Shown here in pieces: positions 1,511 through 17,626 of a stretch of 64,000 bases of DNA; within the stretch, counting starts at the first letter, position 1; each line of letters begins with the position of its first letter. The DNA is from Dendrophyllia cribrosa. Taxonomy: Eukaryota; Cnidaria; Anthozoa; Scleractinia; Dendrophylliidae. A program made the position numbers and the translations under genes. The notes below the pieces were generated by a model. That model ran no database searches. It worked only from the letters and a program-made list of their open reading frames with translations, and had not been told where the DNA came from. The stretch covers positions 17,554,021 to 17,618,020 of the forward strand of contig JAJLRJ010000013.1 in the NCBI GenBank assembly GCA_024195265.1, in the 5' to 3' direction.

Positions 1511-2146
1511 ATGAATTGTAATTTGGAAATTCACAATTATATGATGAGTATTGGTGAGTTGACCTGTCCCTTTTGTGACCGACGATTAGCAGATGTTGGT
1601 AGAAATACGGAAATGATGAGTATTGGTGAGTTGATATATCCCTTTTATGATATGAAATTATTAGAAGTTGATAGTAGTGCTAGATTGGTTGAGTTATGTT
1701 GTTGTGAACAAGATATAAATAGTATAGATGGTATGAGCGTCTGTCTAAATTGCGGTTCCGTCCATGGTTATGATTATGTTAAAGAGTACGTTGATTTTTA
1801 TGAGAATATGTATAGAATAAGGACGAAGAGTGTGTATGTAAGAAAATATCATATTGAAAATATAATCAATAAATATAATAAAGAAATTCATTTGAGTTAT
1901 CAAGACCGTAACAAAATATATAAGATTTTTGGATTAATAAACAACGTGTTACCAGAAGTCAATAAGAACCGGAAACGGATGATTAGTGTAACCTATGTTT
2001 TGAGAAGATTATTAAAAATTTTAGGATTACCTTATGATAAAATAAAAATAACTTCTTCTAAAAAGACATTAAAATTTTATGAACAATGGTGGGATGATGT
2101 TTATAAATTAATAAAGAATGATGTCAACAAAATTATTAAAAGGTGA
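1511..2146 (+). CDS. VLTF3-like zinc-ribbon late transcription factor (putative)
   Basis: This 211-aa protein has an N-terminal cysteine-rich part (CPFC near residues 18-21; CCCEQ about 74; CLNC about 87) followed by a basic helical domain. The segment around YVRKYHIENIINKYNKE (residues ~114-130) and the C-terminal LKFYEQWWDDVYKLI resemble the conserved blocks of poxvirus/NCLDV VLTF3-like factors, which drive late viral transcription. That assignment is from memory of the family pattern, not a search. A 24-codon segment is duplicated in tandem near the N-terminus (starts 1541 and 1613), and the second copy carries YPFY in place of CPFC. The gene is preceded by the AT-rich motif CATATAATAGTATAG seen before other genes of the element. 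It is convergent with the 2TM gene. Alternative: an unrelated TFIIB-like zinc ribbon. Confidence 0.55.
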   Translation: MNCNLEIHNYMMSIGELTCPFCDRRLADVGRNTEMMSIGELIYPFYDMKLLEVDSSARLVELCCCEQDINSIDGMSVCLNCGSVHGYDYVKEYVDFYENMYRIRTKSVYVRKYHIENIINKYNKEIHLSYQDRNKIYKIFGLINNVLPEVNKNRKRMISVTYVLRRLLKILGLPYDKIKITSSKKTLKFYEQWWDDVYKLIKNDVNKIIKR

Positions 2147-2212
2147 CCTGTTGCATGATTCTCAGAAAAATAGGAAGTCATTTTTCCCTTTGAATGAATT
2201 ATAAAATAAAAT

Positions 2213-2695
2213 TTACTCGAATTTTTTATCATACTGTTTCTCGAATTTATCAGCAAGAGGACAAAGATCGATGATTATTTCATCTAACTGTCTCATTTCA
2301 TTGATGAAAACAGTGTGGTTGAATTGATTTCCTCTTAAAAAAGACCGTAGATCAACTAACACTTTTTCATAAGTCATATAAGAAAATTTAGACATTTCAA
2401 TTTTTCTCTTATAGTCCTTGATTTCAGATATTGTCTTAAGCAATAAACCAGCTCCAGAAATAGAAGCTAGTATAGCAGGATTTAATGTGATACTACCAGC
2501 TATTGTACCAATAACTACTAAGCCTGTTGAAGTAACATTTACAATTAAATTCAATCTCTTAAAATATTTGAAAGCCTTTTTATAACACCAAAAGCGTTTG
2601 TGGTAATATCTATATAACGCTTTGATTTCAGATAATTTTTCTTTGCTTATACACTTATCGATATGATTAAATTGAAAGATATCTGTTTTAGTCAT
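2213..2695 (-). CDS. Two-transmembrane protein of unknown function
   Basis: This is a 160-aa protein. Residues ~49-85 form a hydrophobic hairpin (LIVNVTSTGLVVIGTIAG, then NPAILASISGAGLLL) with a short polar turn, flanked by basic and aromatic helices rich in K, Y and F. That is the profile of a small two-pass membrane protein whose soluble arms face one side. It reminds me of 2TM SLATT-type effectors, but I cannot confirm any family. It lies in the leftward cluster, 26 bp downstream of the 133-aa gene, with the AT-rich TAATAATATATAG motif before its ATG. A role in entry, egress or membrane interaction would suit its position beside the fibre gene, but this is inference only. Confidence 0.6.
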   Translation of the reverse strand: MTKTDIFQFNHIDKCISKEKLSEIKALYRYYHKRFWCYKKAFKYFKRLNLIVNVTSTGLVVIGTIAGSITLNPAILASISGAGLLLKTISEIKDYKRKIEMSKFSYMTYEKVLVDLRSFLRGNQFNHTVFINEMRQLDEIIIDLCPLADKFEKQYDKKFE

Positions 2696-2721
2696 TCTAT
2701 TCTATATATTATTAGTACATA

Positions 2722-3123
2722 TTATATTTTAGGATTTGAAATAAGACAATATAATACACCACTTATTTGGCCCATTATTGGAGATCTTTTTACTTTCTTT
2801 GGCATTGAAAGGAAGCAATATGTGTATCCAGGCCCCATTTCATAGTCATTATAAAATCTTCCAAATGCATCATGAAAAATAGCATGTTTAATTAAAAATT
2901 GGTAATTGGTATTTAGAGTACAAGAACCTGGTCCTATTAATCCAATGTCAGGGTGTTTTTCTAATATTTGGTTAAATAATATTGGCTTATTCAAATAGTT
3001 AACGTACAAAAATTGATATATTAAAGCCGATTTTAATATTTCATCTTTAGTATTAGGATGTAGGTTTTTTTGGGTTGTGAAAAATTTATTACAAAAATTA
3101 ATTGACTGTGCAAGAATTGACAT
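2722..3123 (-). CDS. Unknown 133-aa protein
   Basis: I do not recognise this protein. It has no signal peptide or clear membrane span. Visible features are an all-alpha-looking N-terminal half (SALIYQFLYVNYLNK) and a glycine-rich middle (PDIGLIGPGSCTLN) followed by a histidine-containing segment (LIKHAIFHDAFGRFY). The ATG is preceded by GATATATATAA, the short promoter-like motif common to this element, and the gene follows the fibre gene in the same direction with a 32-bp gap. The base composition matches its neighbours, which supports a real gene. Confidence 0.55.
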   Translation of the reverse strand: MSILAQSINFCNKFFTTQKNLHPNTKDEILKSALIYQFLYVNYLNKPILFNQILEKHPDIGLIGPGSCTLNTNYQFLIKHAIFHDAFGRFYNDYEMGPGYTYCFLSMPKKVKRSPIMGQISGVLYCLISNPKI

Positions 3124-3155
3124 TTATATATATCAATATATTAGATAATTATATA

Positions 3156-4931
3156 TTAAAACTCTTCAAAAAGTACACTGATATGGCAATTATAAGGTGC
3201 ATATGTAATATGATCAATTGATAGTAATTTGATTTGTACAACTGTATCTTCATTGAAATTGATAACTGATGCCGCTATATTGAAAGTGTAATAAATTTTA
3301 TTCGATGCTTTATTCCAATTTTGTGGAGCAAATGAATAGTTACCGATTAATATAACCATTTTTTTGTATCCTTCAGGCGGTTTATCGTCCAATATTATCA
3401 ACCATAATTTTACTATTATCAAATTAGTTACCGCAATAAATGATGATGAACCGTTGAACATTATATCACGACTGTTCTTATTTTTCATATAATTGCCTAA
3501 AAATATGAATTTATTTTTCAGTTTTGGTAAACCAATTAGGTTTCTACCATTTAAATCAATATCAGTCTCCATAACCATTTTTCCATTTTCAATTACAAAA
3601 ACAGTATCAAATACATCTGGATCGACACTCGAAACATGTCCTTTAACACCATAAACGATTAGATGTGCTTTCTTTGTATTCCCTTTTGTTATTCTTCCAT
3701 GAAGATCTATCATTATATATTCAGGTGGAGAGACCTGCCATTTGTGTAAATGAACAATGCTTTTCGTATATCCTTCAGTGTTGAAAATCTTTGTTGTTTG
3801 CTGACCGATGTTGATAACTGTTGAGACAACAGTGACAGATGTTGAACTAATATGAGCTTTATCTGGAACAAAAAACTCGATTACCAAAGTGAACTCACCT
3901 TGAGAAAGATTTAGTGCATTAAAACCTATCCTTGACGCGAAGTCATCGTTATTGTCTGTCGTAAGAGTTATATCATAGGCTTTCTTATTAATTTTGTGTG
4001 GACTGGATACAAAATCGATAATACCATTAACAACAATATTACTCTCCGACGAGCTCTGATTAACATCTTCCATCATGTATCTAAAAACATCTTTTTTAGC
4101 TGTAGAGGTATTTATATGTGACTTGTTTACATAACTCTTATAATCATCCGTTATTCGTGTGTACAAGTTTGTATTGGAATCATTAAGTTCGCTGTTGAAA
4201 AATGAAACATTTATAGCAGCGTCATTCTCATTTGGTTCAGGAGTTGCTAGATTAACAATCTTTTTATCTCCCATATCAAGATCGCTGGAAATAGTTTTAT
4301 CAAGTTTGAGTGTTTCTAAATTATTTATTGCATTCGTATTTTGATTTATTCTTGTGTTGTTATCACCAGTTTTTGTGTCAACATATCCTTTATTTGTAGC
4401 GTGATCAACTGCTATTGGATCTTTTACATTGAAGATCGTATTTTTATTCATATCAAGGCCCGTTTCCATAGAAAGCATTTCTTTACGAGAAAGAAAAATG
4501 TTTTTCACGTCGTTGTAACTAACAAGATTGTTGTAATTTGCAGCTAAATCCAAGTATGTCTGTTGTTTCGACTTAACAATATTAAAAAGTTCTTTCAAAT
4601 CAATGTTTTTAGTAACTTCATGAGTGTGATCAGGAACATCGGGATGATATTTTTTTAGAGTTATCATATTCACAGCTGAAAGATCTTGGTTTTCATCTGT
4701 GTTGATATTTATGATTTTCTTATTCTTCGCATCATATTGTTGACCGTCATAATTTAAAAAATGTGTCTTCCCATGGTAAAAAGGGAAAGCATCATTATCC
4801 CCAGCTGCTTGAACATTTAATAAAGAATGATAATTAGCATCTAAATGATCATTCAATACTATTCTTTTGTTTTTCATATATGCATCTGTAATATTAGCTT
4901 TTTTATTATTATGATTTTTAAGAGTTATCAT
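3156..4931 (-). CDS. Fibre-like attachment protein, C-terminal main part
   Basis: This 591-aa frame is rich in N, D, T and K. It carries recurrent short beta-repeat units such as LDMNKNTIFNVKDP (residue ~165), DMGDKKIVNLATPEP (~220) and DLNGRNLIGLPKL (~465), separated by heptad-like linkers (NNTRINQNTNAINNLETLKLD). This is the look of trimeric fibre shafts and tail spikes, followed by a ~220-residue beta-rich tip. Its first ATG sits exactly at the edge of a MITE (4931-5113). The frame upstream of the MITE (5116-5447) has the same repeat type and would be in register without the insertion, so this is the larger part of a split gene of roughly 700 codons. Host attachment is inferred from the architecture; no receptor domain is recognised. 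Confidence 0.7.
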   Translation of the reverse strand: MITLKNHNNKKANITDAYMKNKRIVLNDHLDANYHSLLNVQAAGDNDAFPFYHGKTHFLNYDGQQYDAKNKKIININTDENQDLSAVNMITLKKYHPDVPDHTHEVTKNIDLKELFNIVKSKQQTYLDLAANYNNLVSYNDVKNIFLSRKEMLSMETGLDMNKNTIFNVKDPIAVDHATNKGYVDTKTGDNNTRINQNTNAINNLETLKLDKTISSDLDMGDKKIVNLATPEPNENDAAINVSFFNSELNDSNTNLYTRITDDYKSYVNKSHINTSTAKKDVFRYMMEDVNQSSSESNIVVNGIIDFVSSPHKINKKAYDITLTTDNNDDFASRIGFNALNLSQGEFTLVIEFFVPDKAHISSTSVTVVSTVINIGQQTTKIFNTEGYTKSIVHLHKWQVSPPEYIMIDLHGRITKGNTKKAHLIVYGVKGHVSSVDPDVFDTVFVIENGKMVMETDIDLNGRNLIGLPKLKNKFIFLGNYMKNKNSRDIMFNGSSSFIAVTNLIIVKLWLIILDDKPPEGYKKMVILIGNYSFAPQNWNKASNKIYYTFNIAASVINFNEDTVVQIKLLSIDHITYAPYNCHISVLFEEF

Positions 4932-5113
4932 ACACCACTTTCATAATGGCGGCCGATTTATTTATTCTTTTATATGTATGTTAATTAGCCTCACCGGCCT
5001 CGTTGGCGTGTGCAAAATTCAAAAGAATTTTTACTCTAAAACGAGGCCGGTGAGGCTAATTAACATACATATAAAAGAAGAAATAAATCGGCCGCCATTA
5101 TGAAAGTGGTGTA
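4931..5113. mobile_element. 183-bp foldback MITE inserted in the fibre gene
   Basis: The sequence is nearly a perfect inverted repeat: TACACCACTTTCATAATGGC at the left end matches its reverse complement at the right. The arms are ~75 bp, around a ~30-bp centre (5011-5040). TA dinucleotides at both ends suggest a Tc1/mariner-type target. It is GC-richer than the element and carries stop codons that cut the fibre frame. Confidence 0.9.
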
Positions 5114-5447
5114 TATTAACAGCTGACAAATCATTGTTTTCATCTGTATCCATATTTGTAATCAATTTTCGGTCCATATCAATTTCACCAGGAAGAATTA
5201 ATTTATTTCCTCGCATATCAAGATCCCCAACCATATGAGTTGTTCCATCTAACTTCAAATAATGCGTGTCTCCATACTCTTTGTTGACGACATCTTTAAA
5301 ATTTGTGGGGTCCTTGACATTAACTAATTTCTTATTTTGAATATCAAAATCACCATCATCATTCAACATAAACCCAACACCAGGTAATCCCCTTTGAGAT
5401 TGATTGTTGAATGTTGATTCAGGTAGACGTCCGTTTGAGTAACTCAT
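5031..5447 (-). pseudogene. Fibre-like protein, N-terminal fragment
   Basis: This 138-codon frame starts at an ATG preceded by TTATTATATAA. Its first ~111 codons are genuine fibre sequence: a glycine-rich head (RGLPGVGFMLND), then units of the same kind as in the downstream part (DIQNKKLVNVKDP, DLDMRGNKL, DENNDLSAVN). The last ~27 codons are MITE sequence, ending in a MITE-supplied stop. DENNDLSAVN at the break is nearly the same as DENQDLSAVN found within the C-terminal frame, which identifies the two as parts of one repeat-built gene. Confidence 0.8.
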
Positions 5448-5474
5448 TTATATAATAACATTATATTACTTTGT

Positions 5475-6110
5475 TTATATTTTTTCATTGAAATTCTTGG
5501 TTGTGAATTTCTTTGGTTTATCAATATATATGAATGAAAATGGTTCTTTAGTTGCTTTATCATATAATTGTTTTGAAATACTGTTTTCACGGCAAATTAG
5601 ACTCTTTTCATTGGTGCTTGGGAATTCGTAAAGACAGAAATGTGAACAGTTCAATCTTATGTCTTTCGGTGTCTTATAATAGCTCTGACTCAAATAAATC
5701 ACACTACAGTTTTTGTGTCTCCCTCGTATAAAATAGTCGACTAATGGTTTTTGGTTTTTATCACATACGAAATCGTCGAATATCACTATTTTCTGACTTT
5801 CATTATCAATATCATTTACAGGAATAATTTGATCATTGCTTGCTTCAATAACATTATAACCAGCTTCATCACTTATTGGCTGGAACATATCCATAAGATT
5901 CTGATACTTGGACTGCTCTAAGTTTTTCGCATACAGGTATATTTTATCAAAGTACAATAAATTGTAAATCATATGCATAAGTGTATTTGTTTTTCCCGAA
6001 CCACTTGGGCCGCAAACCAACATCCTAAATGATTGATCTGGCATGAAATCATATAACTGTCTAAAGTTCGAGACCATATCGTCTTCAATATCGTAATTTG
6101 GTATTATCAT
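5475..6110 (-). CDS. FtsK/HerA-type genome-packaging ATPase
   Basis: This protein translocates viral DNA into capsids. Walker A is GPSGSGKT, in the segment RMLVCGPSGSGKTNTL, and Walker B is IVIFDDF; between them lie the sensor-like LYAKN segment and, after them, a conserved RGRHKNCSVIYLSQS block. The length (~211 aa) is typical of Polinton and adintovirus ATPases. I chose the ATG at 6110 (MIIPNYD): it is preceded by CATATTATATA, while the longer frame to 6227 would add only a low-complexity PCYT repeat encoded by a 12-bp tandem repeat. It is divergent from the 337-aa structural gene, so 6111-6256 is a shared promoter region. Confidence 0.92.
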   Translation of the reverse strand: MIIPNYDIEDDMVSNFRQLYDFMPDQSFRMLVCGPSGSGKTNTLMHMIYNLLYFDKIYLYAKNLEQSKYQNLMDMFQPISDEAGYNVIEASNDQIIPVNDIDNESQKIVIFDDFVCDKNQKPLVDYFIRGRHKNCSVIYLSQSYYKTPKDIRLNCSHFCLYEFPSTNEKSLICRENSISKQLYDKATKEPFSFIYIDKPKKFTTKNFNEKI

Positions 6111-6140
6111 TATATAATATGGGTATATTATTTCAATACA

Positions 6141-6200
6141 ACATGGTGTGTAACACGGTGTGTAACACGGTGTATAACACGGTGTATAACACGGTGTTAA
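6141..6200. repeat. Five 12-bp tandem repeats in a divergent promoter
   Basis: Units of the form ACACGGTGTRTA lie between the ATPase start (6110) and the rightward gene at 6257. Each unit contains the near-palindrome ACACGGTGT. They are also open in the ATPase frame, giving an apparent PCYT repeat that is probably untranslated. Possible regulator binding array (inference). Confidence 0.75.
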
Positions 6201-6256
6201 ACGTTGTTTTTTATATATGATTTCCAAATTTTATGTAACCTAATAATATAATAAAA

Positions 6257-7270
6257 ATGAGTTTACTTAAATGGAAAGAACTTGCAAAGAGTAAATCTCT
6301 ATTAGGTAATAAGATTAATCTTGTACATGATGCAATCACAAAACATAATCTTAGTCATAAGATAAGTCAAGAGTCATTGGCTAAGGTATTCAAACCTGTG
6401 ACTAGTAAATTAGATGATGTTATCGACAGTAATTTAGATTTAAGGGTACCCATAAGAAAGAAAAGAGCACCTAAAAAAGCTGATCAAGGTATTGATTATA
6501 TGCCTGAAGTTGACCCTTTCGAAGACATGCAAGTTGATGATTTATTTGGTGATTATGTCCCACCAAATCAAAATAAACAAATTGTACCTAAACCACCTAC
6601 TTATGAAGAATCTTTACAAGATCTTATGGAAGGGAAGAAGGAGATTTATGTTGATCCTCAGTACTTTGGTGATGAACCTGATGAATTACCACCAGAATAT
6701 GAAGAAGAAGAGATTGACTATGGATTAGATGATGAATATACGGCAAATGAGATATTGAATGATATTGGTATTACGGATTATGAAAATGTGGAAATGAGGA
6801 TAAATCAACCAGAAATGACACATAAAAAGACTAAGGCCTATCTTAATAAGATAATAAAGGATGCGAAATTTAAAAAGAATCAATTAAATGGCTATCAATC
6901 AAATGTTACAAAACAATACAATAAGGGGGAGATATCATCAGGTGAAAGGCAAATGCGAAACAAAAGAATAGACAACGCAAGAGCTACTTTAAAGGAATAC
7001 ATAAAACATTATGAGACTAAACTGCAAACAATGAAAGGTTCCGGAATCAACGGCCGAGGAAGAAAACAGAGAGGTGGAAATATTATGTTTTTTAATGATG
7101 TAAAGCAGCTTTTGAAAAAATTGGAATTGATTGTTGGTGAAAGATTGGCAGGGAATACCAGCATTGAGATGAGGAATATGGGAGTTACTATATTGGACAC
7201 ATTATTGAAAATGTCGAAAATCAATAGGTCACAATATAGTAAATTGTATAGTCAATATTTCAAAATATAA
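6257..7270 (+). CDS. Structural protein with two PPxY late-domain motifs
   Basis: This 337-aa protein is acidic in the middle and basic at the end. It contains PPTYEES (PPxY at residues 113-116) and LPPEYEEEE (145-148), motifs that recruit NEDD4-family ubiquitin ligases in other viruses, including adenovirus pVI. Residues 259-263 read MKGSG, matching the adenain consensus (M/I/L)xGx-G, followed by the basic stretch GRGRKQRGG. This suggests maturation cleavage by the protease encoded in the element. The C-terminal ~75 residues are a helical domain (NDVKQLLKKLELIVGERL). It is first in the rightward structural cluster, 22 bp before the penton-like gene. The exact family is not recognised; an internal or scaffold-type capsid protein is most likely. 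Confidence 0.7.
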   Translation: MSLLKWKELAKSKSLLGNKINLVHDAITKHNLSHKISQESLAKVFKPVTSKLDDVIDSNLDLRVPIRKKRAPKKADQGIDYMPEVDPFEDMQVDDLFGDYVPPNQNKQIVPKPPTYEESLQDLMEGKKEIYVDPQYFGDEPDELPPEYEEEEIDYGLDDEYTANEILNDIGITDYENVEMRINQPEMTHKKTKAYLNKIIKDAKFKKNQLNGYQSNVTKQYNKGEISSGERQMRNKRIDNARATLKEYIKHYETKLQTMKGSGINGRGRKQRGGNIMFFNDVKQLLKKLELIVGERLAGNTSIEMRNMGVTILDTLLKMSKINRSQYSKLYSQYFKI

Positions 7271-7292
7271 TTTATGTAACTTTATTATATAA

Positions 7293-8039
7293 ATGGAACG
7301 AGAGATAGTTTTATCATCTTATAGTGTAAAAAATCAAGGGAATAATAAACCTGAAGATTTCACAACAAAATTTACTAGACCAATGATATTGGATAGTAAT
7401 TCTCAATATGTGATCGGCCTTAACCGAATTATCAATATGAGTTTTACATGGTTTAATGTTAATGCTGGATACAATAATCAATTAATTAAATTTAGCTCTG
7501 ATAGTGGTTCAACATTTAACAACATCACCTTTCCAGCCGGAGTATGGAATTATACAGACTTCAATACATATATCAAGGATATAACGAAGACTGGTGATAC
7601 GTATCCTATCACTCTTGAATTCGATAATACAACATTTAGGGTTACGATTACATTGGCTCAGAATTATCAGCTTGATTTGACGCATTCCAATTTTAATGAT
7701 CTAATCGGGTTTGATAAGACAGTATTATCTAATGAAACAAATATAGGGCCGAAAGTGCCCAATCTCAGTCAAGACACTGATATTTTGAATATCCATTGTA
7801 ACCTAATTAATGATTCACTTGTCGACGGTCAAGATACAGACATCATTTATAGCTTCTCGACCAGTGTACTCCAACCTAGTTATAGCTTCACTTTAGAACC
7901 ACGAAGAGTCACATTCAATCCAGTCAATAAGAATAATATTAGTAGTATCAGGGTATACATTACTGATGGAAAAAGAAGATTAGTTAACCTGAATGGAGCA
8001 GATACATCTTTCTCACTAATTCTGAAAAGTATAGAATAA
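7293..8039 (+). CDS. Minor capsid (penton-like) protein
   Basis: This 248-aa, beta-rich protein begins MEREIVLSSYSVKNQGNN and continues with FTTKFTRPMILDSNSQYVIGL, a pattern I associate with Polinton and adintovirus penton proteins (single jelly roll forming capsid vertices). The length fits. The gene sits between the PPxY protein and the small basic protein, two genes before the major capsid gene, which is the usual order. TTATTATATAA immediately precedes the ATG. Assignment rests on pattern and position. Confidence 0.75.
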   Translation: MEREIVLSSYSVKNQGNNKPEDFTTKFTRPMILDSNSQYVIGLNRIINMSFTWFNVNAGYNNQLIKFSSDSGSTFNNITFPAGVWNYTDFNTYIKDITKTGDTYPITLEFDNTTFRVTITLAQNYQLDLTHSNFNDLIGFDKTVLSNETNIGPKVPNLSQDTDILNIHCNLINDSLVDGQDTDIIYSFSTSVLQPSYSFTLEPRRVTFNPVNKNNISSIRVYITDGKRRLVNLNGADTSFSLILKSIE

Positions 8040-8056
8040 TATAACATAATAGTATA

Positions 8057-8455
8057 ATGAAACCGTATGAATTCAAAAGATTTTACCATCCAAAACTTGG
8101 TAAATTTGTATACAGACACAAAGGATCGGGAATTATCGTTGATAATATTTTCAAACCGTTGAAGAGTGTTGCATCATCTGTTTTCAAGAAATTTGCTAAG
8201 CCAATAGCAAAGAAGGCGTTAGAATCGGGGATATCCCATGCAGGTGAGCGACTGGGTAAGGCGGTATCTCAAAAATTTGGTGATTTGATAATGAAAAGAT
8301 TGACAAATTTGAGAAAAGGAGCTACAAGACAAACGGCAATTGTTCCATCCTCACCCATTAAACAGCAACAGCAAGATGAAAGTACTGATATGATACTGAA
8401 TAGACTCATTTCTGGAGATGGTTTGAGGAGAAGACGTAGAGTTAGATTTGTATAG
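8057..8455 (+). CDS. Small basic core protein with adenain-type cleavage site
   Basis: This 132-aa protein is strongly basic. It has an amphipathic centre (FKKFAKPIAKKALESGISHA) and a tail containing ISGDG followed by LRRRRRVRFV. ISGDG fits the adenain consensus (M/I/L)xGx-G, so the protease would release an arginine-rich C-terminal peptide, as adenovirus does with its core peptides (inference). The gene lies 17 bp after the penton-like gene and 50 bp before the capsid gene. A DNA-condensing or membrane-active minor virion protein is the likely role. Confidence 0.65.
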   Translation: MKPYEFKRFYHPKLGKFVYRHKGSGIIVDNIFKPLKSVASSVFKKFAKPIAKKALESGISHAGERLGKAVSQKFGDLIMKRLTNLRKGATRQTAIVPSSPIKQQQQDESTDMILNRLISGDGLRRRRRVRFV

Positions 8456-8505
8456 AATCAATGAATATATTTTTTAATTGTTAAAATTATATAACATAAT
8501 AATAT

Positions 8506-9792
8506 ATGTCTTTCAGAACAGATAATTTTCTACAAAGAAATGAGTTGGTGCGATTCCAACTCGATGATGTAATCAGGTCTCCAGCTAACGGTCAACACCA
8601 AACGAAAAATGGTTATAAATTTACAATTAATGATCGATCGAGTTTCTACGATTGGTACAATGCCTATATTGAAGTCCAATTCCAAGTACAGAAATTAGCA
8701 GACGGATCGGGATATGCTGCTGCTGACAGAATCACAGTCATTAATGGAGCGCATTCCTTAATTGACCACATAATGATTAAAAGCGCTGGGAAAATTGTGT
8801 ACGACACTGATAATCTACACAAGGTCACTTTTGTGAAGAATTTGCTAGAGTATTCTGATGATTATAGCAGATCAGTCGCTAAAAACAGTTTCTGGTATTT
8901 GGACACGAATGCTACAACAGCCAACACGAATACAGGATTTGAAGCTCGCCGGTTGCAAACTCAAGCACTTCGAGACAATGGGACTGGTGGTGCTAAAAAC
9001 ATTAATGTGATTATACCATTGAACAGGTTCTCATTTTTTGAAGAACTTGAAGATAAGATGCTTGTACCAATGCAAATACAATTTAACATTGAGCTACAAA
9101 ACGATGGTGAACTCATTCACATGGCTAATGGAACTGATGCTGGAAGAATTGTTGTTAATAGGTTTTTGCTATGGGTGCCAAAACTAACCCCAAAGGATTC
9201 ATTGTATGACAATTTCGTTAGTTCATTTCTTAAAGAAACTCAGTGGAAATATTTAAGGGAAATGTACGAAGCATCAGCTCCTACACAATCATCAGGATTT
9301 TTCCAGATTTCAAGCAGTATTGACAATGTCAAACACATTTTTGTTTACTTGAAAAGAACAAACCCGCCTAATGATGCAGTTGAAGAAGACAGTCCTTATC
9401 TAATGAACACTTTTAAACTTAATGCTGCTGATAATAACTCTTCCCTTTTAAACTGTAGACTAGAATATGGAAATGGAGTCTTTTATCCAGAAACAGAGTA
9501 TGATACAGAATCAAAAGTGAGAATCTTTAACGATTTGATGCCATATACTATGCGGAAAAATGACTATAACAGCGGAACTCAGCTGAACTTAGCAAACTAT
9601 AGTTCTCTGTATGGGTTGATTTACTTTAATCTTACGTATCAAACTGAAAAAATAACAAGAGATCCGAAACAGCTAATCTTTAGGTATAGACTAAGCCAGA
9701 ATGCAGTTGCAAACTTCAATGTTCATGCTGTAGTCCTATATGAAGAATCTGTTGTCATTGACAAGGTGGGTAATGAATTGGTTATAGTGTAA
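8506..9792 (+). CDS. Major capsid protein (double jelly roll)
   Basis: This 428-aa protein forms the pseudo-hexagonal capsomers of Polinton virions. It is beta-rich throughout, with features typical of the family: an N-terminal RNELVRFQLDDVIRS, then YDWYNAYIEVQFQ-like strands, SLIDHIMIKSAGKIVYD, a central FFEELEDKMLVPMQIQFNI block and a C-terminal IFRYRLSQNAVANFNVHAVV. The length is slightly below many Polinton capsids but complete, with an ATG preceded by ATATAACATAATAATAT and a normal stop. It is flanked by the core-protein genes. Confidence 0.9.
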   Translation: MSFRTDNFLQRNELVRFQLDDVIRSPANGQHQTKNGYKFTINDRSSFYDWYNAYIEVQFQVQKLADGSGYAAADRITVINGAHSLIDHIMIKSAGKIVYDTDNLHKVTFVKNLLEYSDDYSRSVAKNSFWYLDTNATTANTNTGFEARRLQTQALRDNGTGGAKNINVIIPLNRFSFFEELEDKMLVPMQIQFNIELQNDGELIHMANGTDAGRIVVNRFLLWVPKLTPKDSLYDNFVSSFLKETQWKYLREMYEASAPTQSSGFFQISSSIDNVKHIFVYLKRTNPPNDAVEEDSPYLMNTFKLNAADNNSSLLNCRLEYGNGVFYPETEYDTESKVRIFNDLMPYTMRKNDYNSGTQLNLANYSSLYGLIYFNLTYQTEKITRDPKQLIFRYRLSQNAVANFNVHAVVLYEESVVIDKVGNELVIV

Positions 9793-9856
9793 AATAAATA
9801 TCCTTATTTCATATATATTATGTGAAATTTTATATAATATATATTATATATAAGAA

Positions 9857-10678
9857 ATGACTCAGCTTTTTGAAATCAAAGTAAATTTGTCTGACAATCA
9901 AAAGAAGAATCTTAGCAATGCTTTCAAAAAAAGGGAAACTATTGTTCTCAGACTATCAAATAAATCTCTTCATGGCAATGACGTTTTATATGTATCATCG
10001 ATGGTGAAGAAGAGATTGGAGAAGAATCGTATGATGAATAAGGGTATGGATATCAAACTTGTTAAAAGTAATATCAGAAAACAGGTTGGAGGTAGTCTAC
10101 TAACTTCTATCTTGAGTATTGGAAAGACGCTAGCACCAACTATAGGCAAAACCCTTGGGCTATCAGCTCTTGCTGGATTGGCTTCAGAAGGTGCTTCTCA
10201 GATTGTGAAATCAATATCTGGCAAAGGCGTACAGTCGGGTGGTTTTCTCGTACCACAAGACAAAATTAATAAGCTGATAGAATATAAGCATCTTTTATCT
10301 GCGAAACAAAAACAGGATATATTGAAAGCCCTTCAATCAGGTTCAGGTGTTCATGTGAAACCAACAAAAACACAATCAGGTGGATTTTTAGGCACTCTGT
10401 TGGCAAGCATTGGTGTTCCACTCCTTCTAAATGCTTTGACTGGTAAAACTGGTAGTGGGGCTCCACGAATGGGAACTAGTAAGAAAAAGGGTATGGGAGC
10501 TCCAAGAATTGGTGTATATAGACCACCTCCATTTTATGGGAGTTGGCCCGATAATACGATAGGTATGGGGATTAAAAAAAAACAACCAAAAAAAAAGACA
10601 ACCAAAAGGGGCGAAGGCTTGCTATTAGGGAAAAGCAGCCCTTTCAATGGTATTCCTCTTCTCGGAGCAATACTGTAA
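9857..10678 (+). CDS. pVI-like hydrophobic/basic virion protein, frameshift donor for the protease
   Basis: This 273-aa protein has an N-terminal basic helical domain (~70 aa), a glycine/alanine-rich hydrophobic middle (SLLTSILSIGKTLAPTIG; LGSALAGLAS-like) and a proline/lysine-rich tail. Repeated SGGF segments and ISGKG resemble adenain sites, and RPPPFYGSW contains PPFY, a third PPxY motif in the element. Membrane-lytic pVI-like activity is inferred. The 3' end encodes GIKKKQPKKKTTKRGE over two A9 runs. The second gives a perfect A AAA AAG heptamer in this frame, and the protease frame opens there in -1. The gene terminates at 10678, within the overlapping protease frame. Confidence 0.7.
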   Translation: MTQLFEIKVNLSDNQKKNLSNAFKKRETIVLRLSNKSLHGNDVLYVSSMVKKRLEKNRMMNKGMDIKLVKSNIRKQVGGSLLTSILSIGKTLAPTIGKTLGLSALAGLASEGASQIVKSISGKGVQSGGFLVPQDKINKLIEYKHLLSAKQKQDILKALQSGSGVHVKPTKTQSGGFLGTLLASIGVPLLLNALTGKTGSGAPRMGTSKKKGMGAPRIGVYRPPPFYGSWPDNTIGMGIKKKQPKKKTTKRGEGLLLGKSSPFNGIPLLGAIL

Positions 10679-11136
10679 AACCGAAATTCCACAAAGACAT
10701 CCCGTTAAGTAATCATGATCTAATAAAATGGTGCAGATATTTAAACATCCCAATCAGTGATGTTCTGTCAAGGGATGAAAGAGTTCCACATAATCATAGC
10801 CAAGCATTATTTATTTACAATCTGGAACCTAGTTATATGGCAGGATCTCATTGGGTTACAACTTATGTAAAAGACAACGTGATAAATTATTTTGACAGTT
10901 TTGGTATGCCTCCATTTCAAGAGATCGTAAATCATGCAAAAAGAAGGAATATGACACTGCTTCACCAAAAAAACCAAATCCAAAACATAAAAACGTCTAC
11001 ATGTGGCTACTTCTGTTTATACTTTCTGAACGAAATGAATAAGGGGAATTCGTATTATAATTTATTGCAAGTATTTGACATATATGATACAATGATGAAT
11101 GAGAGATTCCTCGAACATTATTTTAGAAATATCTAA
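10576..11136 (+). CDS. Adenain-like cysteine protease (no ATG at its start; candidate -1 frameshift product)
   Basis: This is the virion maturation protease of the adenain (Ulp1-like) family. The frame contains the N-terminal conserved DLIKWCRYLNIPI and SRDERVPHN blocks (about 10720-10790), catalytic histidine in GSHWVTTY, the acidic residue in YFDSFG, and nucleophile cysteine in STCGYFCLYF (codon 11002-11004). The only early ATG is at 10837, inside the catalytic domain just before GSHW, and starting there would remove about 50 conserved residues. Upstream the frame is open with no ATG, back to the stop at 10573-10575, where it overlaps the pVI-like gene at A9 runs. Expression as a -1 frameshift fusion is therefore proposed; transcript slippage, a non-AUG start or a lost start are alternatives. 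Confidence 0.85.
   Translation, partial: KKTTKKKDNQKGRRLAIREKQPFQWYSSSRSNTVKPKFHKDIPLSNHDLIKWCRYLNIPISDVLSRDERVPHNHSQALFIYNLEPSYMAGSHWVTTYVKDNVINYFDSFGMPPFQEIVNHAKRRNMTLLHQKNQIQNIKTSTCGYFCLYFLNEMNKGNSYYNLLQVFDIYDTMMNERFLEHYFRNI
10591..10597 (+). promoter_or_regulatory. Slippery heptamer A AAA AAG, candidate -1 frameshift site
   Basis: In the frame of the pVI-like gene the codons are AAA (10589), AAA (10592), AAG (10595), giving X XXY YYZ = A AAA AAG. The first A9 run (10574-10582) also offers A AAA AAA. The -1 frame is closed by TAA at 10573 and then open to 11136. A hairpin GGCTTGCT/AGCAGCC (10616-10623 with 10634-10640) lies 18 nt downstream. Confidence 0.6.
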
Positions 11137-11149
11137 CTTATATATATAA

Positions 11150-11944
11150 ATGGTTGAATCATATTGCGTTAAGGAAAAACGACAGACGGAATCAGTACCT
11201 GATTCTGAACTATATGTAAGAACTAAAAACAATCGATTGATGTTGAAATCACAATGTTCTTCTTGTGGAATAATAAAAAGCCGATTTGTATCCAATAAAA
11301 AAGGGAAACTAAATAGCCAGTCAGAGATGGCTGGCGGATTTTTAGATATTACTGGTTCTCATACTCTTGGTGAAATTGCAGCTAAAAGCGCTTTAAAAGG
11401 TTTGTATAATTTAGGTAGAATTGGTGCTTCAAAGGCTATTAAATCAGATTTTGCTAAACAAAAGATCAAAGGTATGGCTAACAAATATCTGGATCAAGCT
11501 TTGGATAGTATTACATCAGATTTATCAAAGAAAATAGATCCTTTACACAAAGGCGGTGCTATTGATATACATAAGGCCATTGGGAAGCTTCCGAAACCAA
11601 AAGGAGGGTGGACATTACCCGGTCATAAATATACTGGGCCTTATAATGATTTAGAGAGTCAAGTGAAATATGACCCAACAACTGGCCAAATATTAGAAAT
11701 ATATGACCAACCTACAGGAAGAACGGATGCCATTGCCATGCAGCACGATGTTGATTATAGTGTTTGTAAAGACGACAGAAAGTGCAAGAATAGAGCAGAC
11801 AGAAAAATGGTTAAATCTTTAGACAACGTACCGTATAATGAAAGACAATGGGGGCATTGGTTGGCTAGAAACACGATTGATATAAAACAGAAATTAGGTC
11901 TTGGTATTAAAAAAAGGAAGCCAAAAAACGTAAAGCGGCGTTGA
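11150..11944 (+). CDS. Zinc-ribbon plus phospholipase A2-like virion protein
   Basis: This 264-aa protein has three parts. Residues 1-48 look like a DUF5679-type zinc ribbon (YCVKEK ... CSSCG), although the first CxxC has lost its second cysteine. Residues 60-64 are MAGGF, matching the adenain consensus (M/I/L)xGG-x. The C-terminal part holds a parvovirus-type PLA2 signature: a calcium-loop-like GHKYTGPYNDL and the catalytic HDVDYSVC (histidine-aspartate pair), then a basic tail. PLA2 activity would help virions escape endosomes (established for parvoviruses, inferred here). The ATG follows CTTATATATATAA. The last codons overlap the integrase frame at a slippery A AAA AAC heptamer. Confidence 0.75.
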   Translation: MVESYCVKEKRQTESVPDSELYVRTKNNRLMLKSQCSSCGIIKSRFVSNKKGKLNSQSEMAGGFLDITGSHTLGEIAAKSALKGLYNLGRIGASKAIKSDFAKQKIKGMANKYLDQALDSITSDLSKKIDPLHKGGAIDIHKAIGKLPKPKGGWTLPGHKYTGPYNDLESQVKYDPTTGQILEIYDQPTGRTDAIAMQHDVDYSVCKDDRKCKNRADRKMVKSLDNVPYNERQWGHWLARNTIDIKQKLGLGIKKRKPKNVKRR

Positions 11945-12891
11945 GTAAAAATGATTGGGCTCAACAATTAGCCGATGAATTACATAAGCCAATCAAACGA
12001 AAATTTAAAACAAGAAGAGTTATTGTTAATGGAATAGATGATATTTGGAGTGCAGATCTCGTTTTTATGGATAAACTCTCAAAATGGAATAAAGGATTCA
12101 AATACATATTGACTGTAATAGATGTATTCAGTAAATTTGCTTGGGCTATACCACTAAAAAACAAAACAGGTATTTCAATTACTGATGCATTTAACGACAT
12201 CATAAAAAAGTATAAAAGAAAACCGAAATATCTCTGGGTTGATGAAGGATCTGAATTTTATAATAAAACTTTCAAGGAGTGGTTGAAACAAAACAATATT
12301 GAGATGTATTCCACTTTTAATGAAGGTAAAGCTGTTGTGATTGAACGTTTTAATCGCACTTTGAAAACCAGAATGTATAAACAATTCACAGTTCAAAATA
12401 ATACTGTTTGGCATAATATTTTAGATGATTTGGTTAAAAAATACAACAACACTAAGCACAGTTCAATAAAAATGTCACCGCTTGAAGCATCTAAGAAAAA
12501 GAATGAAGGAACTGTTTATTTCAATCTATATGGTGATATGGAACCATCATCATCAAAAGTAAAATTCAAAGTTGGTGATAAGGTTAGAATTTCAAAGTAT
12601 AAAAGAAAGGTATTTGATAAAGGATATACTCCAAATTGGTCTGAAGAGGTATTTACAGTTGATAAAATCCAATATTCCAATCCAATAATATACAAATTGA
12701 AAGATCTCAATAATGAAGCAATAGAAGGATCATTTTACACTGAAGAATTACAATTAGCTCAACAAGATATATTCCGTATTGATAAAGTAATCAAAAGAGA
12801 CTATAAGAAAAAACAAGCTCTAGTTTCATGGTCTGGTTATCCAAAAGAGTTCAATTCATGGGTACCTCTAAAGGACGTTAAAAATATATAA
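11911..12891 (+). CDS. DDE (retroviral-type) integrase with C-terminal chromodomain (no ATG at its start)
   Basis: This enzyme integrates the element, producing the 6-bp duplication. The rve catalytic core shows the D,D-35-E triad in SADLVF, WVDEGSEF and VIERFNRTL. After it come the KYNNTKHSSIKMSPLEA block, an SH3-like DNA-binding segment (FKVGDKVRISKYKRK) and a chromodomain (FRIDKVIKRDYKKKQALVSW ... WVPLKDV) that may bias target choice. The frame opens at 11911, right after a stop in the A7 run within the PLA2 gene. The first in-frame ATG is near 12067, after the first catalytic aspartate, so an ATG-initiated protein would be dead. A -1 frameshift from the PLA2 gene is the best explanation. 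Confidence 0.93.
   Translation, partial: KKEAKKRKAALSKNDWAQQLADELHKPIKRKFKTRRVIVNGIDDIWSADLVFMDKLSKWNKGFKYILTVIDVFSKFAWAIPLKNKTGISITDAFNDIIKKYKRKPKYLWVDEGSEFYNKTFKEWLKQNNIEMYSTFNEGKAVVIERFNRTLKTRMYKQFTVQNNTVWHNILDDLVKKYNNTKHSSIKMSPLEASKKKNEGTVYFNLYGDMEPSSSKVKFKVGDKVRISKYKRKVFDKGYTPNWSEEVFTVDKIQYSNPIIYKLKDLNNEAIEGSFYTEELQLAQQDIFRIDKVIKRDYKKKQALVSWSGYPKEFNSWVPLKDVKNI
11923..11929 (+). promoter_or_regulatory. Slippery heptamer A AAA AAC, candidate -1 frameshift site
   Basis: In the PLA2 gene frame the codons are CCA (11921), AAA (11924), AAC (11927), giving A AAA AAC, the heptamer used at the MMTV gag-pro junction. The 0-frame stop is only 13 nt away (TGA, 11942-11944). A hairpin GTTGAG/CTCAAC (11940-11945 with 11960-11965) starts 10 nt after the heptamer. 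The -1 frame leads into the integrase. Confidence 0.65.
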
Positions 12892-12905
12892 TGTTTATAT
12901 ATATC

Positions 12906-13214
12906 ATGAGTGGCATTGAGAAATATATCAAAAAAATAAATTTTCAAATTCAGGAATGTGAAGATGAAATAGACAATCTTCATGATAAAATATATGATAA
13001 TGAGCGTAGATTGGATCTGTTACAATATAAAAAGAAATTATTGAAACTTTATCATAAAAAAATACATGAAATTGATGAAGATATAACATTGAAACAGTTA
13101 TTGAATATTATCTGCAATGAGATAGAAAACAATAGATACGATGATGAATGTAATGTGTTGAAACAAACCAAAGTTGATAATATAGCTGAATTGAAAACTG
13201 AAATATGGGTATAA
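12906..13214 (+). CDS. Small coiled-coil protein
   Basis: This ~102-aa protein is made almost entirely of charged heptads (KYIKKINFQIQECEDEID; NERRLDLLQYKKKLLKLYHK). I prefer the ATG at 12906 (MSGIEK) over 12891 because the TTTATATATATC motif typical of this element precedes it directly. It follows the integrase by 14 bp. No enzymatic domain is visible; a dimeric regulator or structural adaptor is possible, function unknown. Confidence 0.6.
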   Translation: MSGIEKYIKKINFQIQECEDEIDNLHDKIYDNERRLDLLQYKKKLLKLYHKKIHEIDEDITLKQLLNIICNEIENNRYDDECNVLKQTKVDNIAELKTEIWV

Positions 13215-13236
13215 ATTAAAAATACTATAAATTATT

Positions 13237-13260
13237 TAAACGCACTAAAATGACTTAAAA
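13237..13260 (+). promoter_or_regulatory. Shared upstream motif, copy 1
   Basis: TAAACGCACTAAAATGACTT lies about 25 bp before the zinc-finger gene. A near copy precedes PolB (13563-13588), and no such motif precedes the structural genes. Candidate early-class promoter element (inference). Confidence 0.5.
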
Positions 13261-13281
13261 AAATAATCATACTATATAGTA

Positions 13282-13497
13282 ATGGAAAAACAATCAAGGG
13301 GAAGACCTAAAAAGTATATAACTGATGAAGAAAAACGTATTATGGGACGTGTTTATTGTAAGAAGTATAATGACAACCCAGAGAATAAATATCATTGTAT
13401 TGAATGCAATAAATATTTCCATCCTGCAAGTAAATATAAACACAATAAAACTAGAATTCACAAAAATACAACAACGAATAACACAAGAATATCATAA
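13282..13497 (+). CDS. AT-hook and C2H2 zinc-finger protein
   Basis: This 71-aa protein begins with an AT-hook-like RGRPKKY (residues 6-12). Residues ~37-60 form one C2H2 finger, YHCIECNKYFHPASKYKHNK, with a further histidine-containing tail. Both elements bind DNA, so a virus-encoded regulator is likely. It lies between the coiled-coil gene and PolB, and shares with PolB an upstream motif absent from the structural genes, suggesting co-regulation. Confidence 0.65.
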   Translation: MEKQSRGRPKKYITDEEKRIMGRVYCKKYNDNPENKYHCIECNKYFHPASKYKHNKTRIHKNTTTNNTRIS

Positions 13498-13562
13498 AAA
13501 GATAATCATATATGACCAATCATATATAACTATCTCAAATTATTTCAAAAATAATTCCAAAA

Positions 13563-13588
13563 ATAAACGCACTATGAAAATGACTTAA
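13563..13588 (+). promoter_or_regulatory. Shared upstream motif, copy 2
   Basis: ATAAACGCACTATGAAAATG followed by ACTTAA, 32 bp before the PolB ATG. It matches 13237-13260 apart from two extra bases. An AAACGCACT fragment recurs near the right TIR (about 17478). Confidence 0.5.
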
Positions 13589-13620
13589 AGAAATATTATA
13601 TATAATTATATATATAGATA

Positions 13621-16600
13621 ATGGAAAAATCAGAATTAAAAAAATTGAGTAAGTCTCAACTAATCAAATTGCTTTTAAAGCAACAGAATAAGAAGCCTAA
13701 AATTATTGTGGTAGATGATACCAAACCAGTTCCAACACCAAGAACTTACAAACCAGTGCCAGCACCTCGTAAGAGTGTAAATCAAATGGTCCAAGATTAT
13801 GAAAACAATATAATTCTTCCACCATTGGAATTCAGGGATAAACCAGTTCCAGCACCTAGAACTAAAAAGTCAGTTGCAGAAAAACCAGTTCCTGCTCCAA
13901 GAACTAAAATAGAGCAAACAGACAAAGCTCTAAAAGGTTATACTAAATCCTATGAAATCACAATTAAAAACGATAAAGACCCATTAGTTCAACTACAAAA
14001 CACTAGAAAGGGTATTGAATACCCGCTCATAAACATATTAACATCGATGAAAGGACTGAAATTTGTTGAAACGCTTAAGGTAACATTTACAAAAATGTCA
14101 GACGGAGAAATAGTGTATAAGACCGCATATTTCAACAGTCTAGCTCAAACAATCATAAATAATCTAGAAATTACTAAATCACTACAATTGTCAAAACAGC
14201 AAATCTTGAATAAGATAGCTCAATGGATATCTGAAGGGTCTGGTTGGACTGTTAAATTGGTTGATAATCATTATATTAACATAGTAAAATATCAACCAAT
14301 GAGAGGCTCTTCATACATTAAACTACCACAAGAACTCAGAAACAGTGCAAAGGGATTGATAAATATGAAAAATGAGGATAATGAATGCTTTAGGTGGTGT
14401 CACATCAGACAGTTGAATCCCCAAGAAAAATACCCGCAGAGAATTAAAAAATGTGATAAAGAATTTATTGAAAAGTTGAATTACTCAGGAATTGAATTTC
14501 CAGTCAATCAAAAACAGTATAATAAAATTGAGAAACGGAATAATATCAATATCAATGTATTTGGATATGAAGAAAAACAACCATTTCCTATTTACATATC
14601 CCAAGAAAAATTTGAAGATCAAATGCATTTACTATTGATCACAGAAGGTGAAAACAAACATTATGTATTAATAAAAGACTTCAATAAATTTATGTACAAT
14701 CAAACAAAACATGAACATAGAAAGCATTTTTGTATGTATTGTTGACAATGTTTCAGTAGTGAAAGAGTATTATTAAATCATAAAGAAAATTGCATCATAA
14801 TAAATGGAAAACAAGCCATAAAAATGCCGACAAAGGATAATAACATATTGAAATTCAACAACTTTCATAAGCAGTTGCCTGTACCATTTGTCATCTATGC
14901 AGATTTTGAAGCTATTGTAGAAAAAATAGAAGGATGCAGACCAAACAATGACAAATCCTATACTGAATCGTATCAAAAACATACTGATTGTGGTTATGGT
15001 TATAAGGTTGTATGCTGTTATGATGATAAATATAGTAAACCAGTACAGATCTATAGAGGTGAAAAAGCTGTTAACAAATTTATGGAAGCTATGTTAGAAG
15101 AAGTTAAATATTGTCGTAATATGAATAAAAGATATTTTAACAAACCATTAAAAATGACAAAAAAGGATGAAGAAGAATTCCAAAAAGCTGATAAATGTCA
15201 TATATGTGATAAAAAGTATACAGAGAAAGATATTCGAGTCCGAGATCACTGTCATATTACTGGTCAGTATAGAGGATCAGCTCATCAAGATTGTAATATT
15301 AACTTCCGATTAACTGATAAGATACCGGTTATATTTCACAATCTCCGTGGGTATGACAGTCATTTTATAATGCAAGAGATTGGTGAAATAGTCAAGAAGC
15401 ATACATATACAAATACGAAAGGTGAAAAGTGTCAAATGAACATCAATGCAATTCCTAACAACATGGAGAAGTATATGGCTTTCATGCTCGGTAATCATCT
15501 TACCTTTATTGACAGTTTCCAATTTATGAACTCGAGTTTGGAAAAACTAGTAAGTAATCTACCAAAAGAAGCATTAAAATATACCTCCAAAAAATTCAAA
15601 GGTAAAGAGCTTGATTTAATGGCTCGAAAAGGAGTATATCCTTATGGCTACATGGACAGTTTTGATAAATTCAATGAAAAGCTGCCACCAAAAGAAGAAT
15701 TTTACAGCATATTGAATGATGAGCATATCTCAGATGAAGATTATAAACATGCTCAAAATTTGTGGGATACATTCTCTCTTAAAAATATGGGTGAGTATCA
15801 TGACCTATACCTAAAATCTGACATCCTTCTATTAGCTGATGTATTTGAAAACTTCAGGAAAACATGTTTAGAATACTACAAACTTGACCCCTGCCATTAT
15901 TTCACATCTCCTGGTTTGTCATGGGATGCTATGCTAAAAATGACCAACATTAAATTAGAGCTTATGATTGATATTGATATGTTTCAATTCATTGAAAAGG
16001 GTATGCGTGGTGGAATCAGCTATATAGCCAATCGATATGGTAAAGCCAATAATAAATACATGAAATCATATGATGAGAAGGCGCCCTCAAAGTATATTAT
16101 GTATCTTGATGCCAACAATCTGTATGGTTGGGCAATGAGTCAATACCTTCCAACTAGAGGTTTTAAATGGATGACAGAAAAACAGATTGACAATCTCAAC
16201 CTAGCTAAGTATAAAGAAGAAAGTAAAAAAGGTTTGATACTAGAAGTTGATTTACAATATCCTAAAGAACTACATAATCTTCATAATGACTACCCATTAG
16301 GACCAGAAAAGACGAAAATAACTAAAGATATGTTGTCTGAATATTGTGAAAACATCGTAAAGAAATATAATATAACAACTGGTTTAGTTCATAAATTAAT
16401 ACCAACATTAAGCAATAAAGAAAAGTATATTCTTCATTATAGAAACCTACAATTGTATATTGATCTTGGATTGAAGGTAACCAAAATTCATCGAGTGTTA
16501 GAGTTTAATCAATCCCCTTGGTTGAAACAATATATTGATTTTAACACTAATAAAAGAACTAATGCTAAAAATGCTTTTGAGAAAGACTTCTTCAAGCTTA

Positions 16601-17373
16601 TGAACAACAGCGTATTCGGAAAAACAATGGAAAATATCAGAAAACGAGTAGATGTTAGATTAGTGACCGATGAAAAGAAACTATTAAAAATGGCTGCTAA
16701 ACCAACATATGTAAGCAGTAAGATCTTCAATAAAAACCTTGTAGCTGTGCATAAGATTAAAGAAACACTAACCCTAAACAGGCCGGCATATGTGGGTATG
16801 TGTATCCTAGATCTCAGCAAAACGCTAATGTATGATTTCCATTATAATTATATCAAACAAAAATACGGTAGTAAAGCAAAATTATTATTCACAGACACTG
16901 ACAGTCTCACATACGAAATTGAAGCTAAGGATGTGTATCAAGATTTTTGGAATGATAAAGACAAATTTGATAACAGCGACTACCCTGAAAGCTCACAATA
17001 TTTTGATAAAACTAATAAAAAAGTTATTGGTAAATTCAAAGATGAAGCCGCAGGAGTTCCTATTTGTGAATTTGTTGGGTTGCGATCCAAAATGTATAGT
17101 TACATAAAAGATAACCAAAAAGGAGGAAAGACAGCTAAGGGAATCAAAAAGAATATTATCAAATATAATATCAAGCATCAAGATTATAAAGAAACGTTAT
17201 TAGGAAATAAACAGATGCATCACAAAATGAAAACAATAAGAAGCCAAACTCATCAGCTTGGAACATATGAAATCAACAAAATATCACTCAGCTGCTTCGA
17301 TGATAAAAGGTATATATCAGATGATGGTATAAATTCATATGCTTATGGACATTATAAAATAAAAAAGAATTAA
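13621..17373 (+). CDS. Protein-primed family B DNA polymerase, interrupted by one in-frame TGA
   Basis: This polymerase replicates the element. One frame of 1251 codons is broken only by TGA at 14743-14745, giving pieces of 374 and 849 aa. The N-terminal ~100 residues carry four proline-arginine motifs (PVPAPR type). Around the stop is a zinc-finger-like cysteine/histidine cluster (HFCMYC before, CFSSERVLLNHKENC after). The second piece has exonuclease motifs YADFEAIV, FHNLRGYDSHF and YLKSDILLLAD, and polymerase motif A DANNLYGWAMS, NSVFGKTMENIRKR, and motif C TDTDS. The TGA removes nothing catalytic but separates the N-terminal region. It may be a recent nonsense mutation or a read-through codon. 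Preceded by TATATATAGATA and the shared upstream motif. Confidence 0.95.
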
Positions 17374-17497
17374 ATCAAAAAATAACTTTCCTTAATTTAA
17401 TCCTGTGTAGACTTCCTGTGTTTCCGAGAATTGTGCCACGCAAAGGATTCTATTATGTGGAATCACGCAATGAAATAAACGCACTTTGTTTTTATTA
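17374..17497. other. Right-end non-coding strip of the Polinton
   Basis: 124 bp between the PolB stop and the right TIR. No gene or repeat is seen except an AAACGCACT fragment near 17478. Confidence 0.5.
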
Positions 17498-17620
17498 ACA
17501 TATAGTTTCATTTGATTTTTCTATATTTTTTAATCCAACAGATGGGAAGTAGTTAAGACTTGGCATGGTATCAGATCAGTTTTGCAAAACTGATCTGGTA
17601 CCGCCAAGTCCTTAACTACT
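17498..17620 (-). repeat. Right terminal inverted repeat with terminal hairpin
   Basis: Reverse complement of 386-508. The outer 73 bp (17548-17620) form the same hairpin in inverted orientation, with the CAGTTTTGCAAAACTG centre. Confidence 0.95.
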
Positions 17621-17626
17621 AACCAA
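17621..17626. repeat. Right target-site duplication AACCAA
   Basis: Identical to 380-385 and directly abutting the last TIR base. Confidence 0.93.

Follow-up and report, generated by a model that had tools for sequence, protein, structure and literature searches.

Background

Retroviruses join enzymes to the proteins encoded upstream of them by -1 ribosomal frameshifting at the gag-pro and pro-pol junctions, with slippery sites of the A AAA AAC type. Here we examine a comparable arrangement in a stretch of 64,000 nucleotides (nt) from the scleractinian Dendrophyllia cribrosa (GenBank assembly GCA_024195265.1, contig JAJLRJ010000013.1, positions 17,554,021 to 17,618,020 of the forward strand), referred to in its full length as the window, which contains a complete Polinton. 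In this element a protease frame and an integrase frame each overlap, in the -1 phase, the 3' end of the preceding gene. As at the retroviral junctions, the enzyme lies downstream in -1, a heptamer A AAA AAC stands in phase, and only a minor share of a more abundant protein would carry the enzyme as a fusion. The element differs from retroviruses in being a DNA transposon, in encoding an adenain-like rather than an aspartic protease, in having two two-gene units instead of one polyprotein, and in its downstream structures, which were examined as stem-loops and are weak.

A closer parallel comes from the adintoviruses. On the basis of KnotInFrame analyses, a 2024 preprint (PMC11071296) suggests that some adintovirus penton genes contain -1 slippery sequences close to their 3' end, and it proposes "a similar relationship" for potential hexon-adenain ("Hexain") fusions. 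Both cases involve an element of Polinton-like type, a candidate -1 slippery site towards the 3' end of a putative virion gene and a protease joined to the preceding protein. They differ in that the adintovirus protease donor is the hexon, the penton gains an alternative tail and the case is a KnotInFrame prediction only, whereas the donors in the window are an unnamed protein (donor 1) and a PLA2-like protein (donor 2), and the integrase is included. The sequence-only reading that drew attention to this locus, made without database searches, knew of no such description for Polintons; that statement has to be amended, since for the protease the idea has already been published as a prediction involving a different donor. 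For a -1 fusion of an integrase, searches of an open-licence library that lacks the adintovirus founding paper found no statement.

The explanation towards which we lean, with somewhat better than even confidence, is that -1 ribosomal frameshifting makes the protease and integrase as C-terminal extensions of the proteins preceding them. Ribosomes would shift on A AAA AAC to make the integrase and on an A-run or A AAA AAG to make the protease. The support for this is stronger on the integrase side than on the protease side. The junctions bear on enzyme expression, dosing and particle formation in Polintons: if the recoding junction is conserved, the integrase would be synthesized within a PLA2-type protein and would be predicted to lie inside particles. 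Annotation pipelines, for their part, may call such genes truncated, start them at a false TTG, or score live elements as pseudogenes.

Results and discussion

Anatomy of the two overlaps

The PLA2-like gene (11150-11944; genes and junction features are on the + strand unless stated otherwise) encodes 264 amino acids (aa) with DUF5679 and Phospholip_A2_4 domains (PF08398, E 7.8e-10; PF18930, E 1.7e-07). Its 3' end is overlapped in -1 by the integrase frame (11911-12891), which carries an rve core and a chromodomain (PF00665, E 4.3e-14; PF00385, E 1.2e-05). The integrase frame is shut upstream by a TAA at 11908-11910 and its next open ATG, at 12067, lies beyond the first catalytic Asp; an earlier ATG of this frame, at 11848, is cut off by a TAG that was read by eye at 11866. 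An A7 run (11909-11915) is followed by A AAA AAC at 11923-11929, which stands in the X XXY YYZ phase of the PLA2-like frame and is the candidate slip site for the integrase.

Donor 1 (9857-10678, 273 aa) has a predicted 0-frame product with a conserved tail, GEGLLLGKSSPFNGIPLLGAIL. The adenovirus-endoprotease-like frame (10576-11136) overlaps its 3' end, again in -1, is shut upstream by a TAA at 10573-10575 and has its first ATG at 10837, just before GSHWV. The heptamer A AAA AAG at 10591-10597 is in the X XXY YYZ phase of the donor 1 frame. The frames, their phases and the two heptamers bear out what had been read from the sequence. Similar GIKK(K/R)xPK tails had been attributed to both donors as well; the donor 1 protein does not end so, continuing past its GIKKKxPK stretch into the conserved tail. 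The slip site within this overlap is not unique, because further in-phase candidates are present: the first of two A9 runs (10574-10582) holds A AAA AAA at 10576-10582, the second, with its following G (10588-10597), holds both A AAA AAA at 10588-10594 and A AAA AAG and is the candidate slip site for the protease, and CCCTTTC occurs at 10639.

The designation of donor 1 as a structural protein is putative. Its structure model is good only over approximately residues 1-77, and two fold searches returned no match at E <= 0.001. The protease matches Peptidase_C5 weakly (E 0.0065, 16.6 bits against a curated cut-off of 21.3), its structure model, built from 3 sequences, is poor (predicted local distance difference test score, pLDDT, 49), and its sequence search of the PDB gave a single match at chance level. 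A PHROGs search yielded nothing useful.

The integrase junction in relatives

Conservation was evaluated with lists of related proteins, comprising the best 120 of 7175 matches for the integrase, the best 120 of 2041 for the PLA2-like protein and the best 120 of 3034 for donor 1. Two of the listed matches carry an organism name, both from corals, Oculina patagonica in the integrase list and Stylophora pistillata in the PLA2 list. Scans of viral contigs and genome contigs found no relative at the DNA level. We therefore rely on two-frame codon threading, which asks whether one DNA can encode a donor tail and an enzyme head in two frames; as a control, it recovered the window's own overlaps with 34 and 11 codons in -1, compared with 5 and 4 in +1.

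In 36 of the 120 integrase relatives a PLA2 domain is encoded in frame with the integrase; the other 84 are unfused. Sixteen of the 84 unfused heads thread with PLA2 ends in -1 over 12-36 codons and none does so in +1, against a shuffled maximum of 8; PLA2 matches running on into an integrase were omitted from this threading. The remaining 68 are uncalled, many of them starting too near the conserved domain. One PLA2/integrase phase comparison took in 114 of the 120 integrases.

The converse comparison called the phase of each of the 120 PLA2 tails, using as heads 112 of the 120 integrases, four fused PLA2 matches and the window. The script placed 50 tails in -1, 23 in +1 and 47 in neither. 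Restricting the count to scores that exceed the shuffled maximum, which was 9 in -1 and 8 in +1, leaves 24 of 120 tails in -1 and 21 of 120 in +1, with six unbroken threads on either side; in P0190, one of the 24, the shift falls inside the PLA2 domain. Tail type separates these calls: 12 of 13 tails with a KN[GV] motif are in -1 and one is uncalled (P0144), 25 of 34 KTPKI-type tails are in -1 with 9 uncalled, and 20 of 22 KKRPKF-type tails are in +1 with 2 uncalled. The KN type includes P0123, P0124, P0128 and P0129, which share 76-86% identity with the window PLA2 protein across 68-82% of its length. Where the window has its heptamer, the two frames allow only A AAA AAC in 8 tails (P0123, P0128, P0129, P0130, P0207, P0232, P0237 and P0238), of which P0123, P0128 and P0129 are 76-82% identical to the window protein over 70-82%. 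Conservation of heptamer and -1 phase, on which the sequence-only reading would have its case judged, is thus found at the protein level in the near clade at this junction and fails in the more distant KTPKI/KKRPKF clade, where the phase varies.

The in-frame fusions of other relatives join the same two proteins. The fused linker of P0029, GLGVKKKEAKKRKTALSKNDW, corresponds, starting immediately behind the TAA, to what the window reads in -1, KKEAKKRKAALSKNDW. P0017 and P0064 appear, by eye, to be joined inside the PLA2 end. Since the joins appear to lie at different places, in-frame PLA2-integrase fusion seems to have had more than one origin.

The protease junction in relatives

The donor 1 tail is widely kept. 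The 0-frame peptide GxGLLLGKxSPFxx[IV]P... is present in 113 of the 120 donor 1 relatives, of which 111 satisfy a strict pattern for it at their C-terminus, P0251 has a variant there and the frame of P0286 continues beyond the peptide. Within the 22 residues before the peptide, KK occurs in 111/111 strict tails and KKK in 108/111. Because a single-base error would destroy a tail kept in 113 of 120 relatives, the window's A-run lengths at this overlap are probably right. The two relatives with a fused protease, P0261 and P0262, have protease frames that thread in -1 with the tails of other copies over 36 and 15 codons; the null, from a shuffled control with 30 of the 120 tails, reached at most 8. 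The -1 phase of this junction is accordingly seen in three copies only (the window, P0261 and P0262), and no heptamer is forced. A broader threading of 118 donor 1 tails with the protease frames of these three copies (76 in -1, 1 in +1, 41 unclassified) was dropped as proof, being partly circular because window-like tails must thread with the window's own DNA.

The donor 1 tail motif also turns up in another setting: the PLA2 relative P0121 carries GKGLLLGKNSPF behind a DUF5679-like stretch, as if it were a portable module.

Gene starts and independent initiation

An A/T-rich stretch with TATA or ATAAT lies right before the ATG in 13 of 14 ATG-started frames of the element, compared with 21 of the 283 other ATGs between 6258 and 17370. 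Such a box is absent throughout 10400-10720; in 11740-11990 it occurs at some positions, none of which leads to an open integrase-frame ATG. Boxes such as TATATATAA, directly before the starts at 9857, 11150 and 13621 for example, are possibly late-promoter-like elements. This pattern suggests one transcript unit of donor 1 and protease and another of PLA2 and integrase.

These data bear on independent initiation, in which translation of the enzymes would begin by itself at a non-AUG codon, or on spliced or internal transcripts, with the overlaps reflecting no more than compact packing. Near-cognate codons are available in both frames, including AAG at 10606, ATT at 10624 and TTG at 11941, which overlaps the PLA2 stop TGA, and gene callers place the start of many unfused integrases near this point. 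In 12 of the 16 heads threading in -1 the predicted start lies further upstream, inside the PLA2 end, where protein records leave an ATG undecidable; the M at predicted starts may, however, stand for GTG or TTG, which are poor eukaryotic starts. The absence of the A/T box before these two frames argues against the proposal, which would also leave the repeated PLA2-integrase fusion without a reason. We consider it the least probable of the explanations discussed here.

A model for enzyme fusion and the evidence against it

Under -1 frameshifting, ribosomes on the donor messages would slip at a low rate, so that most chains of donor 1 or of the PLA2-like protein would terminate in their normal tail and a minority would carry the enzyme; the conserved donor 1 tail would belong to the major product. 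Adenain sites follow the consensus [MIL]xGxG or [MIL]xGGx, and candidates are present as ISGKG in donor 1 and MAGGF in the PLA2 protein. The enzymes may be packaged together with their partner protein, and the fusions could be cleaved at these sites during maturation. The frames, their phases, the missing ATGs, the 0-frame tail of donor 1, the near-clade -1 relation of the integrase and the in-frame fusions of other relatives are observed, whereas slipping itself, its rate and the ribosome instead of RNA polymerase as the slipping machine are inferred. The proposal of programmed fusions fares well at the integrase junction of the near clade and agrees with the anatomy of the gene starts; it fares less well for the protease and for the more distant clade.

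Several observations weigh against this reading. Across the element, 26 in-phase canonical heptamers occur in 4676 codons, and by length alone 0.19 would be expected in the protease overlap and 0.07 in the integrase overlap; synonymous resampling, by contrast, gave an in-phase heptamer with probability 0.89 and 0.56, respectively, and 0.11 and 0.24 where it had to lie downstream of the last -1 stop. Lysine-rich tails yield such heptamers easily, and we rejected the heptamers as decisive on their own. Both downstream stems are weak. Near the hairpins read from the sequence alone (10616-10640 and 11940-11965), main stems are predicted at a spacing within the 5-9 nt expected of a stimulatory structure, yet their stability is close to that of shuffled sequences: the stem-loop at 10606-10644 starts 8 nt past A AAA AAG (z -0.4 to -0.8 against shuffles), and that at 11936-11975 starts 6 nt past A AAA AAC (z -1.8 over 61 nt, with 11 of 200 shuffles as good, and -1.1 over 91 nt). 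The hairpins were accordingly rejected as strong signals. Because lysine-rich peptides give heptamers by chance and the stems are weak, the window alone leaves the question of frameshifting unsettled. On the side of the relatives, the comparison is at the protein level, with tails and heads mostly from different contigs, and the fusion in P0029 joins at the A7 run (11909-11915), since its linker match begins just after the TAA, and not at A AAA AAC. For donor 1, 2 of 120 relatives have the protease fused and 5 of 120 have other ends (P0299, in the third frame by threading, and P0253, P0259, P0302 and P0317, similar by eye). The A/T-box criterion, moreover, was picked after the gene starts had been seen.

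The heptamer of the protease junction is a further difficulty, being of the E. coli type. In E. coli dnaX the shift gives a different product of one gene and no fusion to a new enzyme. It occurs on a bacterial ribosome, at a heptamer identical to that of the protease junction. PMC5009743 describes A_AAA_AAG as the highly shift-prone E. coli (dnaX) site and counts A_AAA_AAC with those heptamers on which mammalian ribosomes shift most readily. In view of this difference, slipping at the protease junction may instead take place on the A9 runs, with either the ribosome or RNA polymerase as the machine.

The latter case is transcriptional slippage, in which RNA polymerase would add or drop an A in the A9, A9 and A7 runs and part of the mRNA would encode the same fusion in a single frame. 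Potyvirus P3N-PIPO is similar in its A-run, its -1 frame and the fusion of part of an upstream protein to the new frame, but belongs to a plant RNA virus with its own replicase, and the polymerase acting on a Polinton would be another. Two A9 runs in the protease overlap and runs of at least 10 A predicted in KTPKI-type tails fit this mechanism, under which A-run lengths varying among relatives would be tolerable, as the polymerase slips anyway. Against it, the integrase site of the window has only A7 and A6, and the near clade holds exact A AAA AAC and not a long run. We regard transcriptional slippage as quite unlikely, if less so than independent initiation.

The main counter-evidence to a strictly programmed site is that the phase is unfixed in the more distant KTPKI/KKRPKF clade, where these two tail types and some fused copies look like one junction with differing A-run length. 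These -1, +1 and fused versions also fit indels, assembly error and transcriptional slippage. Under indel or assembly error, donor and enzyme would once have been a single frame, a homopolymer indel, real or from sequencing, would separate them in the window's copy as in many relatives, and the -1 overlaps would be decay. The three phases of one A-run within one clade, the in-frame fusions in 36 of 120 integrase relatives and an in-frame TGA in the polymerase gene speak for it, and false frameshifts have been reported in protist assemblies of multi-copy endogenous viruses (PMC10120064). A wrong A-run length would, however, destroy the donor 1 tail common to 113 of 120 relatives; all 16 informative integrase heads and 12 of 13 KN-type tails are in -1; and the element is young. 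Decay or error is unlikely in our view, although somewhat less so than transcriptional slippage, and frameshifting on the ribosome remains the explanation that we favor.

A more far-reaching interpretation, which we offer tentatively and hold to be rather doubtful, is that one DNA transposon-virus has converged twice on gag-pro-pol logic. Separate -1 sites would attach the maturation protease to a tail-bearing virion protein made in abundance and the integrase to a PLA2 entry protein, placing both enzymes inside the particle, and evolution could switch between "fused always", "fused sometimes" and "off" by changing the length of one A-run.

The element and its surroundings

The Polinton spans 386-17620 (no strand assigned), as defined by terminal inverted repeats and flanking AACCAA. 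The repeats are 124 nt long (386-509 and 17497-17620) and 99% complementary, and because they are so alike this copy is young. Its termini read AGTAGT...ACTACT, and the 6-base-pair target duplication AACCAA lies on both sides (380-385 and 17621-17626). The assignment to Polinton/Maverick elements follows from the terminal inverted repeats with the 6-base-pair duplication, the rve integrase with chromodomain and an A32-type packaging ATPase (Pox_A32, PF04665, E 3.8e-14). The main genes have no second copy within the 64-kb window. A 428-aa frame at 8506-9792, tested as a candidate for the double jelly-roll capsid protein, had no Pfam match.

Two further pieces we take to be polymerase from their resemblance to known examples; in Pfam they matched only Endonuclease_7. 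An in-frame TGA at 14743-14745 breaks the frame in a cysteine-rich region, with TGT before it and CAA after it; it represents either a nonsense mutation in the present copy or a codon that is read through.

The left end of the element (567-1408) contains tandem repeats with copies 94-99% alike and short inverted parts with CCCACGCGTGGG. An inverted repeat at 4924-5120, of 81 nt with 96% complementarity and 35 nt between the arms, lies where two frames of the - strand border. Downstream of the Polinton, open frames on the - strand at 20969-24283 contain a GTGGRGKS helicase-type motif, recognized by eye, and presumably belong to a Helitron/PIF1-like element, which they resemble.

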